From positions 20,447 to 84,446 of the forward strand of contig PNAI01000044.1 of assembly GCA_003169835.1 (NCBI GenBank): DNA of 64,000 nucleotides, written 5' to 3'. Shown here in pieces: positions 46,820-54,983 of this stretch (its first letter is position 1; each line of letters begins with the position of its first letter). The stretch comes from Hyphomicrobiales bacterium. GTDB lineage: Bacteria; Pseudomonadota; Alphaproteobacteria; Rhizobiales; Xanthobacteraceae. Under the pieces are notes generated by a model. The model did no database searches. It was given only the letters and a program-made list of their open reading frames with translations, and was not told the DNA's origin. A program made the translations under genes and the position numbers.

Positions 46820-47512
46820 ATGGCGGAGCGTGAAGATCCGGTTTTATTCCTGCACAACGTCGCGCGCCACTATTGGCAGGGCGATGCGACGCTCGACATC
46901 CTCAAAGGCGCCGAGCTTGCGATCTGGCCTGGCCAATCGGTCGCGCTGGTAGCACCGTCGGGCGCGGGTAAATCGACGCTGCTGCACATCGCGGGCCTGC
47001 TTGAACATCCAGACTCGGGCGAAGTCTATATCCATGGCATGCCGACCGCGGCGTTGGGTGACGATGCGCGAACGCGGCTGAGGCGCACGCAGATCGGATT
47101 TGTCTATCAGGCGCATCATCTACTGCCGGAATTCTCGGCCATCGAAAACGTGATGATGCCACAGATGATCCGCGGGCTGCCGAAGCAACAGGCGGCGCGG
47201 CGTGCGGCGGAGCTTCTGGACTATTTGGGTCTGCGCGAGCGATTGAGCCATCGGCCGGCGGAGCTTTCCGGCGGCGAGCAGCAAAGGGTCGCGATCGCGC
47301 GGGCGGTGGCAAATGCGCCGCGCATCCTGCTGGCGGACGAGCCGACCGGCAATCTCGACCCGCACACGTCCGATCACGTGTTCGACGCGCTCTCCCAGCT
47401 CGTGCGCTCGGCTAAGCTCACCATGCTCATCGTCACCCACAATATGGAGATTGCCGCTCGCATGGACCGGCGGGTGACCATTCGCGATGGAATGGTGGCG
47501 GAGTTGGATTGA
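46820..47512 (+). CDS. lolD: Lipoprotein-releasing ABC ATPase LolD
   Basis: The 230-residue ATPase has Walker A GAGKSTLL, signature [14 protein letters not shown], Walker [12 protein letters not shown] and a switch histidine in TLMIVTHN-like LIVTHN. It powers the LolC/E permease encoded three bases upstream. In related genomes I would expect dnaE next; here the transposon array intervenes. Confidence 0.95.
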
Positions 47513-47605
47513 GGGCGAAGCCGCGACGGGGACCGCCGGCCGGTGCCGCAAAGGCGGACTCGATTGGGGGTGGAAGAAGGACGCGGCTCATGCCAAAGTT
47601 GCAGC

Positions 47606-47791
47606 ATGGCGACTACCCAATTTCATTGCCCGCATTGCGGGGCCTTGTACGAGAAGACGGACAGCAAAGTCGTTGCGCGCGACAATGACCGTGTCACGTG
47701 TGTGGTGTGCCGCAACTCTATGTACGAGGCGAAAGGCCAGAGCGTTCCCGCCTTCAAGCTGATCAAGCGTCCTGAGAACGATACGCAGTAA
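47606..47791 (+). CDS. Small zinc-ribbon protein
   Basis: The 61-residue product has two cysteine pairs, CPHCGA and CVVC, in FHCPHCGALYEKTDSKVVARDNDRVTCVVCRNSM, then VPAFKLIKRPE. A related protein is encoded within the array at 49532 (CDNCGA and CPHC). Function unknown; such proteins often bind nucleic acid. Its TAA lies at the worn left edge of the transposon array. Confidence 0.6.
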   Translation: MATTQFHCPHCGALYEKTDSKVVARDNDRVTCVVCRNSMYEAKGQSVPAFKLIKRPENDTQ

Positions 47792-47807
47792 GGCACTTGA
47801 TTGCCGC

Positions 47808-47844
47808 TTGTACGCTCCGGAATCGCGTGCATATTGGCGGGATG
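47808..47844 (+). promoter_or_regulatory. Array start module, copy A
   Basis: TTGTAC and ATATTG are 17 bases apart, and ATATTG ends six bases before the A of ATG 47842. The 26 bases from GGAATC to GGGATG recur with few changes at three other places in the array (49360, 49817, 51397). The spacing predicts a transcript beginning at or near the start codon. Confidence 0.65.
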
Positions 47845-48015
47845 GTGGACCCTAACGAAACACCCGTAATGATGCCCTATAAGGATCAGGCTGGTTCCGG
47901 CTGGCACGTGATCATCAGGTATCACGCTGGCCACGAGCGGCGCATTGAGGGTTTTGCGACCGAAGATGAGGCTATGGCGTGGATCGTCGAAAACGCCACG
48001 GAAGTCGATAAGTAG
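47842..48015 (+). CDS. Small passenger protein, similar to the transposase C-terminal domain
   Basis: The 57-residue product follows start module A. Its centre, GWHVIIRYHAGHERRIEGFATEDEAMAWI, has the same pattern as the extra C-terminal domain of the transposase in the complete copy (GYFVRVIPRYE, then GFKTREEAEHWV). It is therefore probably a free-standing version of that domain. Function unknown. Confidence 0.62.
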   Translation: MVDPNETPVMMPYKDQAGSGWHVIIRYHAGHERRIEGFATEDEAMAWIVENATEVDK

Positions 48016-48028
48016 CGACCCTTGCCCG

Positions 48029-49045
48029 ATCAGCACGTTATTTGCCGAGCGGCAAAATCTGACAATGCGGATGCACATGCGTCGCTTTTTGCGGTTGATT
48101 AATGCATTCCGCAGGAAAATTGAAAACCATACTGCCGCCGTCGCGCTGCATTCGATGTATTACAATTTCGTCCGCGTACATCAGACTTTGAAAGCCACCC
48201 CCGCAATGGCGGTCGGTGTGACAGACATCTACGCAAAACAGGAGCATCTTCGGAGAGCAAAATCTGCACCGCCAGAAGCGGGCGACGTTTGGACGTGGAC
48301 TGCGATTGATGCCGATACGAAACTCTTAGTCAGTTGGCTTGTTGGTAATCGCGACACGCAGTCTGCTCTCATTTTTATGAATGATCTAAAATCGCGCGTT
48401 GCAGGTCGAATGCAAATCACTTCAGACGGTCACCGGCCTTATTTGCAAGCTGTCGATACGATATTTGGGAACGACGTTGACTATGCAATGTTGCAAAAAG
48501 TTTACGGCGCTGATCCGATTGCAGAGAGACGCTATAGCCCGGCAATTTGTCTTGGCGCGTATAAAAGACCAGTGACAGGTAACCCCGATCTTAAACACGT
48601 CAGTACGTCATTCGCGGAGAGACAAAATCTTTCGATGCGAATGCATATGCGGAGGTTTACACGGCTGACAAACGGATTTAGTCGCCGCATTGAAAATCAC
48701 ACTGCGGCAGTCGCGCTATATTCGATGTATTACAATTTCGCCCGCGTGCATCAGACTTTGAAAGTTACCCCTGCGATGGCTGCTGGCGTGACAGACAAAC
48801 TCTGGGAGGTTAGCGACATCGTGCAGGTGCTTGAGGATTGGGAAGCAAAGACAAAAGCCGCACCGAAATTCGAGATTGAAGCGAACAAGATCGGGGAGGG
48901 GTATTTCGTGCGAGCAACTCTCCCGTCAGGCAAGTCGGAAACGATCTATGGCTTTGCATATAAAGCCTCTGCTGCAAAATGGATCAGGAACGAATCCGTT
49001 GTTTGGCTCCATGCCGTGCGGCAGACGATCAAGGTTCCGGCCTAA
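48029..49045 (+). pseudogene. Chimeric IS1-like transposase remnant
   Basis: One open frame joins two pieces of the transposase. Bases 48029-48226 encode the catalytic-glutamate region (ISTLFAERQNL to PAMAVGVTD), then from 48227 a second copy restarts at the segment following the first catalytic aspartate (YAKQEHLRRAKSAPPEAGDVWTW) and runs to the C terminus. The N-terminal helix-turn-helix and the VDEIW aspartate are missing, so it cannot be active. The frame's first 28 codons are unrelated sequence overlapping the small gene upstream. Confidence 0.8.
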
Positions 49046-49083
49046 TTAAGTATTGCTCAGTCACGCTACGTGCCCCTTAGAGG

Positions 49084-49216
49084 CCGTTTCGAAACCCGGT
49101 GGGGTCGGCCCTCCTCGGTTCTTCGGAACACGAAAATAGCGATATGTGGCTGCCAGACACCGCAAAACGGTGGCAATAGTCACCCTTGAAGCCGTCGGCA
49201 GTGGGTTTCGAAACGG
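49084..49216. mobile_element. 133-bp MITE-like element
   Basis: Perfect 14-bp inverted repeats, CCGTTTCGAAACCC at 49084 and GGGTTTCGAAACGG at 49203, bound a 133-bp noncoding segment. Arms extend outward four more bases with one mismatch. No ORF is supported. It looks like a miniature inverted-repeat transposable element lodged in the transposon remnant. Confidence 0.55.
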
Positions 49217-49301
49217 ACTCTTACGGTACGAGTGTATCTCAACCATTTGTTTGCCATACTTTGGACCTCGATGCAGCCTTATTTGAAAACCACCCACTAC
49301 C

Positions 49302-49309
49302 GCCTCTTG
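49302..49309. repeat. 8-bp junction repeat GCCTCTTG, copy 1
   Basis: It lies exactly between the right end of one copy (CCCACTACC) and the left end of the next (GGTAGTG). Copies 2 and 3 are identical. Eight bases is a normal target duplication length for IS1-like elements. Confidence 0.8.
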
Positions 49310-49359
49310 GGTAGTGTCAGTTTGAATAAGGCACGCCCGTTTGTTGCTAGCAGCATTAG

Positions 49360-49385
49360 GGAATCAGGCGCATATTGGCGGGATG
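49360..49385 (+). promoter_or_regulatory. Array start module, copy B
   Basis: It carries GGAATC, GCATATTG and GGGATG at the same spacing as copies A, C and D, with ATG at 49383. The upstream -35-like TTGCTA is too far (22 bases), so promoter strength is doubtful here. Confidence 0.55.
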
Positions 49386-49532
49386 GACGAGGATCAGGCC
49401 GCAAAGCAGCGTAGGTTGGCCGCAATCCTGGCCGGTTTGGCCGCGCGTGGCCTAATCATCCTCGGGACTAGCCCAGAAGAGATGGCAGAGAAGCTTTCCC
49501 CGGTTGTCGCCGAGATCGAGAAGCTTGTCTGA
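49383..49532 (+). CDS. Small helical passenger protein
   Basis: The 49-residue product after start module B is mostly helical and charged (DQAAKQRRLAAILAGLAARG, then SPEEMAEKLSPVVAEIEKLV). Its stop overlaps the next ATG (tgATG), so the two genes are coupled. No family recognised. Confidence 0.55.
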   Translation: MDEDQAAKQRRLAAILAGLAARGLIILGTSPEEMAEKLSPVVAEIEKLV

Positions 49533-49768
49533 TGCCCAATCCGAGTCTTGAGAAACGCTCAAATTATCAATGCGACAATTGTGGAGCTCTACTGCTCCTA
49601 AAGCGGCTAACCGCGCCGCCAAAACAAGGCGAACAAGCGTTTTGTCCTCATTGCATGGCGAACCTACCGCCGCGCCATGGGGGAGATGCGCTTCAGTACA
49701 CACTTGTTGAACCGTCACTCCCTAAGAAACGCCCGCGCGACGCTAACCAGCTAGGCAAGCTGAGGTAG
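49532..49768 (+). CDS. Zinc-ribbon protein fused to a truncated KRPRD-type tail
   Basis: The 78-residue product has cysteine pairs CDNCGA and CPHC, like the zinc-ribbon protein at 47606. Its last residues, KKRPRDANQLGKL, match the start of the basic protein encoded intact at 51661. The match ends exactly where the left end of the nested copy begins (49764), and a stop falls in that end. So this is the preserved front of the usual second passenger gene, cut by insertion and joined to a zinc ribbon. Confidence 0.6.
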   Translation: MPNPSLEKRSNYQCDNCGALLLLKRLTAPPKQGEQAFCPHCMANLPPRHGGDALQYTLVEPSLPKKRPRDANQLGKLR

Positions 49769-49778
49769 TGGGTCCGTT
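49764..49778 (+). repeat. Left terminal repeat of nested copy E-c
   Basis: GGTAGTGGGTCCGTT is identical to the left end at 51345. The eight bases before it (CAAGCTGA) do not match GCCTCTTG, which shows that this copy used a different target, inside a passenger gene. Confidence 0.75.
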
Positions 49779-49816
49779 CATTAAATTCTGGCCTTGACCG
49801 GCCCTTGGTGAGGCCG

Positions 49817-49842
49817 GGAATGGAGCGCATATTGGTGGGATG
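49817..49842 (+). promoter_or_regulatory. Array start module, copy C
   Basis: It is the same module (GGAATG, GCATATTG, GGGATG) with TTGGTG 18 bases upstream of ATATTG, and ATG at 49840. Confidence 0.62.
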
Positions 49843-49953
49843 AGGCAAGCATCTATCATCGTCATTGTGCTTATTCTGGCCATATCGGCTGGCGGCTGTA
49901 GCAAGTGCGGCGATTACCCGTGGAATCGTCCTGGCACGCAGACCTGCAGGTAA
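49840..49953 (+). CDS. 37-residue predicted lipoprotein
   Basis: This frame is too short for the ORF track. The product starts MRQASIIVIVLILAISAGGC, a short lipoprotein signal with lipobox SAGGC, then SKCGDYPWNRPGTQTCR with two further cysteines. It occupies the variable first-ORF slot after start module C. Function unknown; size and lipobox recall small lysis or entericidin-like lipoproteins, but the similarity is only general. Confidence 0.58.
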   Translation: MRQASIIVIVLILAISAGGCSKCGDYPWNRPGTQTCR

Positions 49954-49957
49954 AGCC

Positions 49958-50189
49958 GTGCCCAAGCATCCCAAGCGCCCACGCGACTCGGCCCAACTGG
50001 CCAAGCTCGTGGTCGATATTGCCACCGGGCAGGTCGTGGACCGCGAGCCCACGCCAGAGGAGCAGGGCAAGGACCCTGCGGCAGTCTCCATGGGGCGCAA
50101 AGGTGGAGCCGCCCGCGCGGCGGCTCTGGGGAAGCCGCAGGCGGAAGGAAATAGCCCGCAATGCAGCCGCCAAACGGTGGCGCGGGTAG
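49958..50189 (+). pseudogene. KRPRD-type small basic protein, frameshifted copy
   Basis: From GTG 49958 it encodes a near copy of the protein at 51661 (HPKRPRDSAQLAKLVVDIATG, REPTPEEQGKDPAAVSMGRKGG). A one-base insertion near 50145 shifts the frame. The normal ending, RRKEIARNAAAKRW, is still readable in the next frame and stops at 50189. Confidence 0.7.
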
Positions 50190-50197
50190 GGGGTGGT

Positions 50198-50915
50198 CTC
50201 TACGCTGGTTGGCGGTCGCAATACCGAATACGCGCTGCATTTTCTATCGGACCTCAAATCGCGTTTGAGCAATCGCGTGCAACTGACCAGCGATGGCCAT
50301 CGTCCGTATTTGCAGGCAGTCGATACCGTGTTCGGTGATGACGTTGATTACGCGATGCTGGTCAAGATTTATGGTTCGGACCCGGCAGGAGCGAAGCGAT
50401 ATAGCCCGGCCAAGTGTCTCGGTGCGCGCAAGTCGCCAGTGATCGGCGAGCCTGACAAGAAGCACATCAGCATGTCATTCGCCGAGAGACAAAATCTGAC
50501 AATGCGGATGCACATGCGCCGCTTTACCCGGCTCACCAATGCATTCTCAAAGAAGTTAGAGAACCACAGCTACAATGTTGCGCTTTACTCCATGTTTTAC
50601 AATTTTGTCCGCATCCATCAGACGCTGAAAGTCTCGCCTGCGATGGCCGCTGGCGTTACCGACAAGCTTTGGGAAATTGGCGACATCATTACGATGGTAG
50701 AAGCGTGGGAAGCCAAGTATGTGACCGCTGGAATTACATACCGCGTTGGCGAGAATGAAATCGGCGGCGGATATTTTGTCCGCGTGATCCCGCGCTACGA
50801 GCTTTTGCCCGATCCGGTCTATGGATTCAAGACTCGCGAGGAAGCAGAATTCTGGATCAAGCAGGATCGTACGTCACACAAGCCGGGCAGGCGACGGAAA
50901 TTAGCCGCCATCTGA
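50198..50915 (+). pseudogene. N-truncated IS1-like transposase
   Basis: The frame starts abruptly at STLVGGRNTEYALHF, which is residue 110 of the intact transposase, right after the KRPRD remnant. It keeps the second aspartate (TSDGHRPY), the glutamate (AERQNLTMRMHM) and the extra C-terminal domain, but lacks the helix-turn-helix and the first catalytic aspartate. Sequence is very close to the copy at 53158, so the deletion is probably recent. Confidence 0.85.
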
Positions 50916-50963
50916 GGAGGCGGCCTATTTACGCGCGTTGCGGTAATTATGGCGCAAAGAGCA

Positions 50964-51146
50964 CTAGCTTTTAAAGACGTTCAATAAAACGGACGTGGCT
51001 GAACCGTCAGCGCCAATATCGGAGTGCTTATTGAGCACTTTTTGTGCGTCTTCCTCATTTTCGGCCAATACAAAATCTGGCCGGTGCTTGAATGAAGGGT
51101 TGGAGTCTTCGTGATAAAATTTAAAGGCCGCCTGAAAGAAAGCCAT
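50964..51146 (-). CDS. Small passenger protein on the opposite strand
   Basis: The 60-residue product (MAFFQAAFKFYHEDSNPSF, then VLAENEEDAQKVLNKH) follows a GAGGAAAG ribosome site. It sits between the transposase and the right end, the same place and orientation as the membrane coiled-coil gene at 54250 in the complete copy. No family recognised. Confidence 0.5.
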   Translation of the reverse strand: MAFFQAAFKFYHEDSNPSFKHRPDFVLAENEEDAQKVLNKHSDIGADGSATSVLLNVFKS

Positions 51147-51336
51147 TTCTTTCCTCACTCTTGGTCTTTAATTCCCGGTTGTACCTACATATTATTACGC
51201 CGAATCCTGGATTGTGGCAAGTTGCCTTAATCTCGAGCTAAGTCCTCACAAAATTGCCCCATTCTGACCAGAGGTTCTTCCCTCTCCAGTTCTTGGCATT
51301 TATCAAGTTTTAAATAAATCAAACTGACCCACTACC

Positions 51337-51344
51337 GCCTCTTG
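51337..51344. repeat. 8-bp junction repeat GCCTCTTG, copy 2
   Basis: It separates the right end of E-b/E-c from the left end of the complete copy E-d. The flanking ends GACCCACTACC and GGTAGTGGGTC form an 11-bp inverted repeat around it, so the junction can also fold as a hairpin. Confidence 0.85.
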
Positions 51345-51385
51345 GGTAGTGGGTCCGTTCATTAAATCGCGGCCTTAATTGCCGC

Positions 51386-51422
51386 TTGCCCCGCCCGGAA
51401 TCGGGGGCATATTGACTGGATG
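51386..51422 (+). promoter_or_regulatory. Array start module, copy D
   Basis: TTGCCC-N17-ATATTG ends six bases before ATG 51420. Spacing is identical to module A, and the upstream TTGCCGCTTG-type sequence is shared too. Confidence 0.65.
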
Positions 51423-51668
51423 GCAAAGCTTCGGCCTGACGGAACAGCCACAATCGGATGGTTGGTCAGTGTTACTCCAACACTGAGCGATAAATCGTAT
51501 TCTGTGAGGCTTTTGGCCGCCGCGTTCGATAGTGGAGCCGCCGCCGAGTCAGCGGTCATGGCGAGCCGGGAGGGCAGCGGGTGCCACGTCACCGCGCTAC
51601 AGCGGTTTACAGCGGGGGAGATGAGCCTTCTCAGAATGAGGCCAGGGGACATCAAACCGTATGCCTAA
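51420..51668 (+). CDS. Passenger ORF 1 of the complete transposon
   Basis: The 82-residue product has a compact alpha/beta look (TIGWLVSVTPTLSDKSYSVR, then ALQRFTAGEMSLLRMRPGD). No family recognised. It follows start module D directly and its end overlaps the next gene by eight bases, so the two are coupled. It has no counterpart among first ORFs of the other copies. Confidence 0.55.
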   Translation: MAKLRPDGTATIGWLVSVTPTLSDKSYSVRLLAAAFDSGAAAESAVMASREGSGCHVTALQRFTAGEMSLLRMRPGDIKPYA

Positions 51669-51891
51669 GCACCCCAAGCGCCCGCGCGACCCTGCCCAAC
51701 TGGCCAAGCTGATAGTCGGCATTGCCACCGGGGAGGTCGAGGATCGGGAGCCTACGCCAGAGGAGCAGGGGAAAGATCCGGCAGCGGTCGCGATGGGCAA
51801 AAAGGGCGGGGCGGCGCGGGCCAGTAAGCTTAGTTCTGCTCGCAGAACGGCTATCGCTAGGAACGCCGCAAAAAGCAGATGGAAGCCCTAA
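51661..51891 (+). CDS. Small basic KRPRD-type protein (histone-H1/RNA-binding-like)
   Basis: The 76-residue product has a conserved front (KRPRDPAQLAKLIVGIATGEVEDREPTPEEQGKD), a Gly/Ala/Lys middle (MGKKGGAARA) and a basic tail (RRTAIARNAAKSRW). I recognise this as a widespread small bacterial protein type, loosely annotated as RNA-binding or histone-like; its role is not known to me. It is the intact member of three copies in the array. Confidence 0.72.
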   Translation: MPKHPKRPRDPAQLAKLIVGIATGEVEDREPTPEEQGKDPAAVAMGKKGGAARASKLSSARRTAIARNAAKSRWKP

Positions 51892-52175
51892 CGTTTTTTG
51901 CGCTTTGGTTCCTTGCCGTCCGCTGGATTGACGACAGCCGCGTCCACCACTAGCGAAGCTGGAGATTCCGCAACTGCCCTTGTGAGTCCGATGCTTGTGA
52001 CTGCCACGGCAGCTCCAGGAACCATCTCTGCGGGCGACGGTCCCATATTTGCGGCAGCCAATCCAAACGACACGATGAGTTGCCATTTACCTTCATGCAG
52101 CTCGGCTTTTTTAATGAGCGCTTCAATTACTTCGGAGTATTTGAACATATACTGATTGATCTCAGGCATCTGCAT
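51888..52175 (-). CDS. Conserved small protein, third gene of the HicAB-like unit
   Basis: The 95-residue product (YSEVIEALIKKAELHEGKWQLIV, then FGLAAANMG and VDAAVVNP) fits a conserved hypothetical type I have seen annotated without function. Its start lies inside the end of the HicB-like gene by 14 bases, so the three minus-strand genes form one unit. The stop overlaps the end of the KRPRD gene on the other strand by four bases. Confidence 0.6.
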   Translation of the reverse strand: MQMPEINQYMFKYSEVIEALIKKAELHEGKWQLIVSFGLAAANMGPSPAEMVPGAAVAVTSIGLTRAVAESPASLVVDAAVVNPADGKEPKRKKR

Positions 52176-52707
52176 TCACCCGCTGATTTTGAACCGGGAA
52201 GCGCACCAATTGTTGGGCTGACGATGTGGAAAATTGCTGTTGTGGGAAATTCCCAGAAGGGGCAACGCCAACCGGCGTGAAATTCACGCCGCCTAGACCG
52301 ATCTGAAGGCTCAAATTGATGTACCCTTGCGGATACACATTAATCATTGCGGGTCGAGCCTGCGCACCAACCTGTTCAGCAATGCTGCCGACAATAAACT
52401 GGTTTAGGCTAACGCCGTCCAGCGCAGCTATATGCGCCGCTTTCTTGTGGAGCGTTTTTGGCAACCTAACCATAAGTTTGCCACTAAACCTTCCACTTTC
52501 AACCGGATCGGGAACGCGCAAATTCCTAGCCAGAGTTGCCTCGATCCAGCTGGCAGCCACCTCTTCCAAATTTGCGTAAGCTTCGGCCCCTGAATCGCCA
52601 GTAGCGATGCAGCCCGGAAACTCGATAATTTCCGCACGAAAAGAGCCATCCGTTTCCGGCACCACAAATCTACCGTAAGGCCGTTTTAGATATTCAGACG
52701 GTTCCAT
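52162..52707 (-). CDS. hicB: HicB-like antitoxin with ribbon-helix-helix tail
   Basis: The 181-residue protein has a HicB-type front (YGRFVVPETDGSFRAEIIEFPGCIATGDSGAEAYANLEEVAASWIEA) and a DNA-binding ribbon-helix-helix (GKLMVRLPKTLHKKAAHIAALDGVSLNQFIVGSIAEQ), then a 60-residue Gln/Asn/Pro-rich tail. It should bind the toxin encoded upstream and repress the promoter. ATG 52707 follows GGAGAG and overlaps the toxin gene by 14 bases. Confidence 0.78.
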   Translation of the reverse strand: MEPSEYLKRPYGRFVVPETDGSFRAEIIEFPGCIATGDSGAEAYANLEEVAASWIEATLARNLRVPDPVESGRFSGKLMVRLPKTLHKKAAHIAALDGVSLNQFIVGSIAEQVGAQARPAMINVYPQGYINLSLQIGLGGVNFTPVGVAPSGNFPQQQFSTSSAQQLVRFPVQNQRVNADA

Positions 52708-53047
52708 TATTCTCTCCACTGCCACTGTCGTTTTCATTTTCTAGTTTTAGAAGTTCGTCCTGTTCTTCCTCTTTCGTGAGTCGTGCCTCCCAAGCCAGCA
52801 AGTCGTCTTCAAGTTGGTCGAGAATGCTGTTCTTCGTTCCTGGAGCGAGATCACGACCTCCATGATGCGGAACCGCTAACGGATACAACTCAGCAAACTC
52901 CTGACTTTCCCACGTGGGTTCTTTACCGCGCTTCACCCGCTTGCGCCCCAGCCGCTTCGCTACGTTCTCTAGCGCCCGAGCCTTCTGAGGCGATCGGCGC
53001 AGGGCGTCGATTTCACGACGAAGCTTGTTTAGCGACCTTCTTTTCAT
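52694..53047 (-). CDS. HicA-like toxin candidate
   Basis: The 117-residue product begins MKRRSLNKLRREIDALRRS and contains PLAVPHHGGRDLAPGTKNSILDQLEDDLLAW, which parallels the HicA core (P-x-H, then K/R-DL-x-x-GT-x-x-x-IL). The N-terminal part is longer than classic HicA and ends are highly charged. Together with the downstream HicB-like gene I infer an RNA-cleaving toxin. The assignment rests on that one motif and the gene order. Confidence 0.58.
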   Translation of the reverse strand: MKRRSLNKLRREIDALRRSPQKARALENVAKRLGRKRVKRGKEPTWESQEFAELYPLAVPHHGGRDLAPGTKNSILDQLEDDLLAWEARLTKEEEQDELLKLENENDSGSGENNGTV

Positions 53048-53066
53048 AGTACCATATGTGATACTA
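53047..53066. promoter_or_regulatory. Palindrome at the HicA-like gene start
   Basis: TAGTACCATATGTGATACTA is an imperfect palindrome (TAGTA and TACTA arms) directly upstream of the toxin ATG, and a likely operator for the HicB-like ribbon-helix-helix repressor. Confidence 0.45.
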
Positions 53067-53130
53067 GATGTGAATCGAAAAGTGGAGTCCCTTTTGTCCC
53101 AAAGCGGGAAAATAAATGGACCTTTTGTAC

Positions 53131-53159
53131 TTGACGATAAGCATAAAAGGTCATATCAT
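53131..53159 (+). promoter_or_regulatory. Transposase promoter overlapping the start codon
   Basis: TTGACG-N17-TATCAT; the -10 box includes the AT of ATG 53158. A transcript would start about base 53166, right at the second in-frame ATG (53167). This predicts a leaderless, probably weakly translated transposase mRNA. Confidence 0.5.
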
Positions 53160-54201
53160 GTCCCGCATGAACAAGCTCGACCAGAAAGCCCGCGCCCAAA
53201 TCCTACACCTCCTATGTGAGGGTAGCTCGATCCGCGCCATTACGCGGCTCACGGGCGTCAGCAAAAACACCGTGGCGCGGCTGCTGGTCGATACCGGCCG
53301 CGCCTGTGCTGAATATCAGGACAAAGTGCTTCGCAATCTCACCTGCAAACGGGTGCAGGTCGATGAAATCTGGTCGTTCGTTTACGCCAAAAACGACAAC
53401 GTTAAAGATGCCAAGTCCGCGCCGCAGGATGCTGGTGACGTTTGGACGTGGACTGCGATTGAGCCCGACACCAAGCTCTTAATTTCTACGCTGGTCGGTC
53501 GCCGCGATACGGAATATGCGCTGGATTTTATGTCAGACCTGAAATCGCGTTTGAGCAATCGCGTACAACTGACCAGCGACGGCCACCGTCCGTATTTGAC
53601 GGCGGTTGATACCGTGTTCGGCAAGGACGTTGATTACGCGATGCTGGTGAAAATCTACGGTTCTGACCCGGCAGGCGAGAAGCGCTATAGCCCGGCCAAG
53701 TGTCTCGGTGCGCGCAAGTCACCAGTGATCGGAGAGCCTGACAAGAAGCATATCAGCACGTCATACGCAGAACGTCAGAACCTGACAATGCGAATGCACA
53801 TGCGCCGCTTTACCCGGCTCACCAATGCATTCTCAAAGAAGTTAGAGAACCACGGCTACAATGTTGCGCTTTACTCCATGTTTTACAATTTTGTCCGCAT
53901 CCATCAGACGCTGAAAGTCTCGCCTGCGATGGCCGCTGGCGTTACCGACAAGCTTTGGGAAATCGACGACATCATTACCATGGTTGAAGCTTGGGAAGCT
54001 GAATACGCGACCGCAGGAATTACATACCGCGTTGGAGAGAATGAAATCGGCGGCGGTTATTTCGTGCGCGTGATTCCGCGCTACGAACCGCTGCCCGATC
54101 CGGTGTACGGGTTCAAAACTCGCGAGGAAGCGGAACATTGGGTTAAACAAGACCGCGCATCACATAAGCCGGGAAGGCGGAGGAAATTGGCCGTTAGCTG
54201 A
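53158..54201 (+). CDS. Intact IS1-like DDE transposase with an extra C-terminal domain
   Basis: The 347-residue protein has a helix-turn-helix (GSSIRAITRLTGVSKNTVARLL, about residues 22-43), and a DDE nuclease with aspartates at about 69 (QVDEIWSFVY) and 141 (TSDGHRPY) and glutamate at about 205 (YAERQNLTMRMHMRRFTRLTNAFSKK). Proteins like this are usually labelled IS1 family. Residues about 285-335 form an added domain (ENEIGGGYFVRVIPRYE; YGFKTREEAEHWVKQD), then a basic tail. ATG 53167 is an alternative start. Confidence 0.9.
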   Translation: MSRMNKLDQKARAQILHLLCEGSSIRAITRLTGVSKNTVARLLVDTGRACAEYQDKVLRNLTCKRVQVDEIWSFVYAKNDNVKDAKSAPQDAGDVWTWTAIEPDTKLLISTLVGRRDTEYALDFMSDLKSRLSNRVQLTSDGHRPYLTAVDTVFGKDVDYAMLVKIYGSDPAGEKRYSPAKCLGARKSPVIGEPDKKHISTSYAERQNLTMRMHMRRFTRLTNAFSKKLENHGYNVALYSMFYNFVRIHQTLKVSPAMAAGVTDKLWEIDDIITMVEAWEAEYATAGITYRVGENEIGGGYFVRVIPRYEPLPDPVYGFKTREEAEHWVKQDRASHKPGRRRKLAVS

Positions 54202-54249
54202 CACGATGCGCGCAAGCGCGGGTTATATGGATACACTCACGGAAGATGC

Positions 54250-54672
54250 TTACGTCGAACGCTTTATAGTGCTTATGGGCTCAACCATAACCCGGTATCT
54301 TCCTCCACTGATTGTTAGCGTGTGGCCAAGCTCACTCGTTGAGTTGACTAGGCTTGTAAGGGCACTTTGAATTTCAGTGTTGCTCCGCGCCAATTGCTCA
54401 AGGCGAGCGGGTGGAGACAATGAGCTTCTAAGATCGGCTATCGTGCTTTCTTGGGTAGCCACCTGTGCTTTCAAATCAGTAAGTTGTGATTGCACATTCT
54501 CAATTTGCTCCCGCGCTAATTTCACACGGTCCTCCGATGTTCGGATGCGCTCGTTTAAAATGTAACCGCGAAACCACCAGACAGCCCCGCCGAAAGCTAG
54601 AATAATTGCACCTATTGAATAGGGGTCATTCATAAAAATGCCCCACAGCGTTTTGAAAGTCGCACTGTCCAT
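54250..54672 (-). CDS. Membrane-anchored coiled-coil passenger protein
   Basis: The 140-residue product has one membrane helix (YSIGAIILAFGGAVWWFRGYIL, about residues 18-39), then a coiled coil of about 60 residues (RIRTSEDRVKLAREQIENVQSQLTDLKAQVATQESTIADLRS). It is the last gene of the complete transposon. ATG 54672 follows GGGGG. No family assigned; form recalls phage or plasmid small membrane proteins. Confidence 0.6.
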   Translation of the reverse strand: MDSATFKTLWGIFMNDPYSIGAIILAFGGAVWWFRGYILNERIRTSEDRVKLAREQIENVQSQLTDLKAQVATQESTIADLRSSLSPPARLEQLARSNTEIQSALTSLVNSTSELGHTLTISGGRYRVMVEPISTIKRST

Positions 54673-54824
54673 GGCAGCCCCCATTGGGGGCCATGCTAGG
54701 CAGACTCGTTTGCGGCCGCCAGAAAACAGATTTAGGCCCAGACTTACGTGGACAGCTATCGAAGGCCACAGACTAACTCCTTCCAATTAGTCAAGTTTTT
54801 GCCAAATCAAACTGACCCACTACC

Positions 54825-54832
54825 GCCTCTTG
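54825..54832. repeat. 8-bp repeat GCCTCTTG, copy 3, at the array's right edge
   Basis: It directly follows the right end of the complete transposon and runs into ACAAGAGAAC, so it marks the chromosomal target. The surrounding CTCTTG-A-CAAGAG is a 13-base palindrome. Confidence 0.85.
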
Positions 54833-54859
54833 ACAAGAGAACAAACGATGAACTATGTT
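54830..54859 (+). promoter_or_regulatory. Near-consensus promoter of the SOS microprotein
   Basis: TTGACA and TATGTT are separated by 18 bases. The first LexA box fills the spacer and the second overlaps the -10 box, so repressor binding would block polymerase. The TTG of the -35 box belongs to the 8-bp repeat beside the transposon. Confidence 0.8.
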
Positions 54860-54871
54860 CTTTGTTTGTTC
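54839..54871. promoter_or_regulatory. Two back-to-back LexA (SOS) boxes
   Basis: GAAC-N7-GAAC (54839-54853) and GTTC-N7-GTTC (54857-54871) are two complete copies of the alphaproteobacterial direct-repeat LexA site in opposite orientation, three bases apart, which together form a near-perfect palindrome. This is strong evidence for LexA control. Confidence 0.85.
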
Positions 54872-54884
54872 TCAGGAGGAAGCC

Positions 54885-54983
54885 ATGTTCCGTGCTGTTG
54901 TTGAAGAAGCCGCCGCTCTGACTTCGATTGCGTTGTTTCTCGGGATGATCGCCATCTGGGCCAAGGTGATTGCGGTCATGTGA
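54885..54983 (+). CDS. SOS-controlled 32-residue membrane microprotein
   Basis: This frame is too short for the ORF track. It encodes a 32-residue peptide, a short amphipathic front (MFRAVVEEAAALTS) and one membrane helix (IALFLGMIAIWAKVIAVM). AGGAGGA stands about five bases before the ATG. Two LexA boxes overlap its promoter. Size, topology and control recall Caulobacter SidA (SOS-induced division inhibitor) and E. coli TisB (SOS-induced pore peptide); sequence similarity was not established. dnaE1 follows after a 485-base gap. Confidence 0.78.
   Translation: MFRAVVEEAAALTSIALFLGMIAIWAKVIAVM

Follow-up and report, generated by a model that had tools for sequence, protein, structure and literature searches.

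A 64,000-nucleotide stretch of alphaproteobacterial DNA (here called the window) holds, at positions 51345–54824, a transposon of 3480 bp in which an IS1-like transposase gene is found together with a HicAB-like unit and several other genes. This raises two questions, namely whether such additional genes are a regular part of elements of this kind, and why the transposon lies where it does, in the gap between lolD and dnaE.

The element and its gene content

The transposon is complete, as judged from its terminal inverted repeats and its 8-bp target site duplication (TSD). The left repeat, GGTAGTGGGTCCGTT, occupies 51345–51359 on the plus strand, and the right one, GGTAGTGGGTCAGTT when read inward, 54810–54824 on the minus strand. 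A previous sequence-only reading had matched the two at 14 of 15 positions, and this agreement was borne out, as were the identical 8-bp flanks at 51337–51344 and 54825–54832 (plus strand), both of which read GCCTCTTG. With up to three mismatches allowed, the end pattern had five matches in the window, compared to a mean of 1.03 over 100 shuffles, none of which reached as many.

The 348-aa transposase (53155–54201, plus strand) is encoded in an open frame, and D70, D142 and E206 are shared by all 40 relatives that were aligned, which upholds the earlier description of an intact DDE enzyme. Its predicted fold (pLDDT 86) was matched by Foldseek to the ISCth4 transposase, TnsB and retroviral integrases, and at its C-terminus is a beta-beta-beta-alpha extension, as is usual in its clade. 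An IS1-type DDE domain is present according to Pfam (DDE_Tnp_IS1, PF03400; 26.8 bits, cut-off 24.1), and the IS1 equivalog NF033558 of NCBIfam is matched at 5.7e-18 but with a score of 65.6, below the cut-off of 100.

Six further ORFs, two on the plus strand and four on the minus strand, accompany the transposase, in accordance with the six cargo genes previously counted on both strands. The former are an 82-aa ORF without a Pfam match (51420–51668) and a gene for a KGG-like basic protein of 76 aa (51661–51891). Three of the latter make up an antisense cargo operon, with a HicA-like gene (117 aa, 52694–53047), a HicB-like gene (52162–52737) and a third gene of 95 aa (51888–52175) that had no match in Pfam or PADLOC. 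The fourth, a 178-aa coiled-coil-type ORF (54250–54786) taken from the ORF list and the Pfam run, fills a right-hand cargo slot. Searches of the surroundings of the element gave no RNA family, and no tRNA gene adjoins it. Nor was any near-identical second copy found in the host genome, which thus offers no sign of recent activity.

The HicAB-like unit proposed from the letters stood in one half only. By its domains, HicB (PF05534; 45.1 bits, cut-off 21) and a UPF0150-like domain (30.1 bits, also above cut-off), the predicted antitoxin is securely identified, whereas its 117-aa partner matches HicA_toxin (PF07927) weakly, with E=9e-4 and 19.7 bits, below the cut-off of 27. The gene of the partner overlaps the hicB-like gene, as hicA would. 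A sequence search among solved structures (PDB) gave no homologue of its product, and a single-sequence structure model was of low confidence (pLDDT 68). The product is accordingly a weak candidate for a HicA toxin. No HicA-like gene of this kind was found in 297 other genomes of the order or in a plasmid collection.

A family with constant genes and exchangeable cargo

A scan of a genome collection gave 80 loci, to which order- and family-wide searches added further places, 72 of which were fetched. Elements were included when matches to the ends were present on both sides of the transposase together with an identical 8-bp duplication. This resulted in 113 distinct elements from Alphaproteobacteria, that of the window included, with lengths of 1.9–4.7 kb, terminal inverted repeats and perfect 8-bp TSDs; most of the hosts are draft or metagenome assemblies. 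The ends are conserved and the cargo differs, as looked for in the comparison that the sequence-only reading had proposed, and the outcome that would have spoken against that reading, homologous elements devoid of cargo, did not come up.

No bare insertion sequence was found among the 113 elements, each of which holds more than a transposase. The KGG-like small ORF, which together with the transposase gene makes up the constant chassis, has a homologue in all of them (hmmsearch, E<=1e-5), mostly near the left end and in 112 on the same strand as the transposase. Between these two genes lies a cargo slot, the contents of which are often antisense. Its most common occupant is a PD-lambda-2-like cassette (HigB / HigA-IrrE / c10), present in 33 of the 113 elements. 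The second gene of this cassette matches PADLOC PD-Lambda-2_B at 4.4e-37, 19 of the 33 carriers gave a detectable HigB, and neither HigB nor the third gene (c10) had a PADLOC match. Less common cargo types were RmrA-like genes (12 elements), Ntn-hydrolase-like ORFs (nine, labeled from the appearance of their sequences and with no Pfam match), a c18 / XRE / DUF6941 cassette (six, with a weak DUF6941 match) and Fic (two). HicAB was found in the window element only, and 50 elements had other or unidentified cargo. These labels rest on profile matches rather than on function.

Along the transposase tree, cargo type switched 22 times among 63 typed elements, compared to a mean of 28 when shuffled. 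In the PD-lambda-2-type carriers, the distance correlation was 0.55 between transposase and KGG and 0.13 between transposase and HigA cargo. Since transposase distance follows that of KGG and hardly that of HigA, the former two appear as a chassis and the latter as exchanged cargo.

A plain IS1-like insertion sequence that by chance acquired HicAB once, with the cargo being incidental, would account for HicAB being confined to a single element. None of the relatives found is free of cargo, on the other hand, and their slot is filled with further cassettes of the toxin-antitoxin or defence kind, many of them antisense; we find this explanation hardly credible. What the comparison describes is instead a family of small transposons, widespread in bacteria, in which additional genes are always present and frequently form predicted toxin-antitoxin or phage-defence modules. 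The cargo would presumably act as such, and for the most common type a role in phage defence seems at least as likely as the stabilization of the element that had been suggested.

Insertion beside predicted SOS promoters

Directly to the right of the element, just beyond its last nucleotide, is a predicted LexA-regulated (SOS) promoter. An intact -35-like hexamer, TTGACA, is located at 54830–54835 on the plus strand, and the TTG of the right TSD is part of it. It is followed by a LexA/SOS box, GAACAAACGATGAAC (54839–54853, plus strand), a second box that faces the other way, GTTCTTTGTTTGTTC (54857–54871, given on the plus strand), and an ORF for a 32-aa protein with a single transmembrane segment (54885–54983, plus strand), which is conserved at this site in relatives. 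The exact GAACN7GAAC found here is the complement of GTTC-N7-GTTC, the LexA motif reported for Alphaproteobacteria (PMC3323433). It is a guess that this box also controls the antisense gene at the right end of the element, whose start is about 50 nt away.

To the left, the element adjoins older relatives. The word GCCTCTTG occurs exactly three times on the plus strand of the window, at 49302, 51337 and 54825; the second and third copies are the TSDs of the element, which by virtue of the first (49302–49309) is part of a tandem array. Between the end of lolD at 47512 and this first copy lie the oldest, degenerate remnants (47513–49301, plus strand), recognized by tblastn pieces of transposase, with a zinc-ribbon-like ORF (~47608–47793), scrambled transposase pieces (~48040–49045) and a right end with three mismatches to the end pattern (49287–49301). 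The second member (49310–51336, plus strand) is a recombinant of two elements, with the left end of one (element B) at 49310 and a right end at 51322–51336. The left end of another element (element C) interrupts element B at 49763/49764 and, at 49764, cuts the KGG-like gene after ...QLGKLR; in element C, a KGG-like ORF is fused to an N-terminally deleted transposase (50193–50915). This may have arisen through the insertion of one element inside another, followed by a deletion. Decay in the array grows leftward, and the intact element is its innermost and newest member. Neither the array nor the adjoining SOS promoter figured in the sequence-only reading.

For the family as a whole, empty sites were rebuilt by joining the flanks of each element. 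In 19 out of 110 sites, an exact GAACN7GAAC starts 4–7 nt past the duplication, compared to a mean of 0.012, and never more than two, in 1000 shuffles of the box test; the background was 42 LexA boxes in 1.15 Mb of neighboring DNA. The rule is not universal, as more than half of the targets (70 out of 113, labeled "other") show no SOS box and no TTGAC at the fixed distance. With the rule already formulated, a search was made of 272 genomes from a single genus, and 14 new places were fetched. One of these (L274) was the same as an element already included (L023), and 11 new elements had both ends. Five of the 11 (L275, L276, L279, L280 and L281) had the exact box at +4 to +7. Another (L278), with a long-type transposase as in the clade of the window, had no SOS box, and L273, for which no left end was found, had one at +1.

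On the transposase tree, the window element belongs to a clade of 13 (support 82, and 99 for the surrounding set of 16 rows), all 13 of which sit in the lolD–dnaE gap. In 12 of these, the duplication, with the pattern NNNNCTTG, ends in CTTG and is followed by AC, i.e. TTGAC is rebuilt in the same register, and the LexA box lies 6–7 nt further on (with one mismatch in L020). Where inspected, a second, opposite box follows, and the downstream ORF is small with a single transmembrane segment, like that of the window. The thirteenth (L019) occupies the same gap in reversed orientation, by the more distant copy of the repeat, and its duplication, AGTGCTTG, recurs at the SOS promoter in that genome.

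As the clade hosts are related (same family) and the neighboring genes orthologous, the shared site could reflect descent from one ancient, vertically inherited insertion rather than targeting. The TSDs, however, are perfect (8/8) within each element and mostly different between elements, which argues for separate insertions; cargo also differs, and relatives have uninserted sites, with the SOS promoter at most 100 nt after lolD (e.g. L128, L129 and L144). Elements are furthermore stacked on one repeat at eight loci (the window, L175, L178, L180, L023, L020, L276 and L176). Two elements that branch far away on the tree (L236 and L244) use the same lolD–dnaE promoter, 10 bp further out, and further clades are found at other SOS promoters. 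Vertical inheritance of a single insertion was therefore rejected as very unlikely. Among these other clades, one (L190, L193, L194 and L195) is located at recA promoters, as is separately L181, with one mismatch in its box, and another (L198, L201 and L205) lies upstream of a small 81-aa ORF, an SOS-box gene. With several branches of the tree at SOS promoters, targeting of these arose or was kept repeatedly. The C-terminal extension was also considered as a targeting module and turned out not to be necessary, given that recA-type elements, whose short transposases reach SOS boxes as well, and L037 are without it.

It could also be that insertion into promoter regions is near-random and that an apparent SOS preference results from selection, by which the harmless insertions are kept. 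The promoter is left intact at the sites, which fits this, and so does the finding of TTGAC exactly 7 nt past the duplication in 21 sites (0.17 expected), most of them without an SOS box. Selection for harmlessness would nevertheless explain neither an insertion point that agrees to 1 bp across a dozen independent events nor its repeated use inside one array, and it is improbable as the cause. The 21 TTGAC sites had no clear -10 box and are consequently referred to as a motif and not as proven promoters; generic promoter targeting was dropped as an explanation for the same reason.

Proposed mechanism and relation to known systems

We thus consider it very probable that the window element is an IS1-like unit transposon with constant transposase and KGG genes and exchangeable cargo, whose insertion at SOS promoters regenerates the target and leads to arrays. 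Ends, duplications, constant genes, variable cargo, a fixed distance to the LexA box, arrays and empty sites can all be read from the DNA itself, and the positions of the insertions establish targeting at that level. The site would be picked by a transposase complex, to which KGG, LexA or RNA polymerase may or may not contribute; candidate selectors are the transposase, through reading of operator DNA, bound LexA, through tethering, or KGG. In the window clade, insertion takes place at the predicted SOS promoter of the 32-aa membrane ORF, where duplication of NNNNCTTG rebuilds the -35-like TTGAC and leaves the LexA box untouched 6–7 nt away. Little damage is to be expected from an insertion after which the -35-like box is whole again, and the site may serve as a "safe harbor". 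With the target renewed next to the SOS box, subsequent elements could land there and displace older ones, which would place the oldest and most decayed copies of an array farthest from the box, as in the window. More tentatively, these transposons may read the LexA regulon, via bound LexA or operator DNA, and thereby park toxin-antitoxin or defence cassettes by intact SOS promoters (of the 32-aa ORF/dnaE, recA and others); transposition or the right-end cargo might then be tied to DNA damage, possibly with KGG as selector.

Typical IS1 elements have a two-frame InsA/InsB' organization and a size under 1 kb. The present family shares with them the DDE_Tnp_IS1 match above the Pfam cut-off, inverted ends and 8-bp duplications (8–9 bp in IS1), and differs by its cargo, its size of 1.9–4.7 kb and a transposase of ~295–350 aa in one open frame; owing to the single frame and the size, we call it IS1-like and not a typical IS1. 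The earlier suggestion of a transporter IS (tIS; Siguier, Gagnevin and Chandler 2009, as cited in PMC3129680 and PMC7986276), i.e. IS-like ends and a transposase with passengers unrelated to transposition, is supported by ends, transposase and the cargo of relatives. What sets the family apart from tIS is a constant second core gene, KGG, a fixed slot and one branch that targets a promoter class.

Tn3-family transposons differ in transposase, ends and target behavior. They have in common with our elements that toxin-antitoxin genes are regular passengers (PMC9330008). The PD-lambda-2 defence system (PMC9519451) has the same HigB-like, HigA-peptidase and third gene as the cargo of relatives, although it is not the cargo of the window element itself.

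Our literature search on IS1 with passengers, ISMhu11 and SOS-box target specificity, with ISfinder outside its scope, gave no prior report. To our knowledge, a one-enzyme IS1-like transposon homing to the operators of a global regulator has not been described. Sister clades home in on different SOS promoters to within 1–3 bp, which makes promoter choice by small DDE transposases testable, and the lolD–dnaE gap and recA promoters are places in which to seek unknown toxin-antitoxin and phage-defence genes.

Lastly, Tn7-like transposons employ several Tns proteins and produce a 5-bp duplication. In the elements studied here, no Tns-type genes were found beside the single transposase, the duplication is 8 bp, the size about 3 kb and the target an SOS promoter. 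Common to both are defence or toxin-antitoxin cargo and conserved safe sites that are kept intact (PMC8649781). The family would hence add a small and simple counterpart to Tn7, with conserved chromosomal sites, an intact target and arrays of defence-type cargo.

The KGG-like protein

All 113 alphaproteobacterial elements with matching ends and a perfect 8-bp target-site duplication carry a counterpart of the KGG-like gene at 51661-51891, which encodes a small basic protein with the pattern KRPRDPNQLAKL...KGG.AR..aL....R.eIA..AA..RW and without a Pfam match. The protein co-varies with the transposase across elements, and is likely to be a transposition accessory.

Exchangeable cargo and remnants

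The slot between this gene and the transposase, where relatives hold PD-lambda-2-like cassettes, is occupied in L018, L022, L023, L175 and L179 by antisense cassettes of three genes, i.e. a toxin-like gene, an XRE gene and a third matching DUF6941 (weakly) or DUF3467. These are candidate toxin-antitoxin or defence systems. Cargo in some elements (L019, L020 and L178) includes an ORF (MTVCIA...SDRM) similar to Ntn-hydrolase/proteasome-type proteins, without a Pfam match. The genome from which the window comes has two further traces at other places, L008 (C45) and L004 (C58): an isolated right end, and a decayed relative of 1.3 kb that lacks a matching duplication.

The target promoter

The segment 54839-54983, between lolD and dnaE, contains two SOS boxes in opposite orientations, followed by a single-TM ORF of 32 aa that is conserved; it has DNA matches in 27 of the 61 family genomes. 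The ORF product is possibly an SOS-induced cell-division inhibitor. This promoter is shared by two target registers, that of the window clade versus that of the distantly related L236 and L244, with TTGAC at -3 or +7 relative to the duplication, a spacing of exactly 10 bp or about one helical turn.
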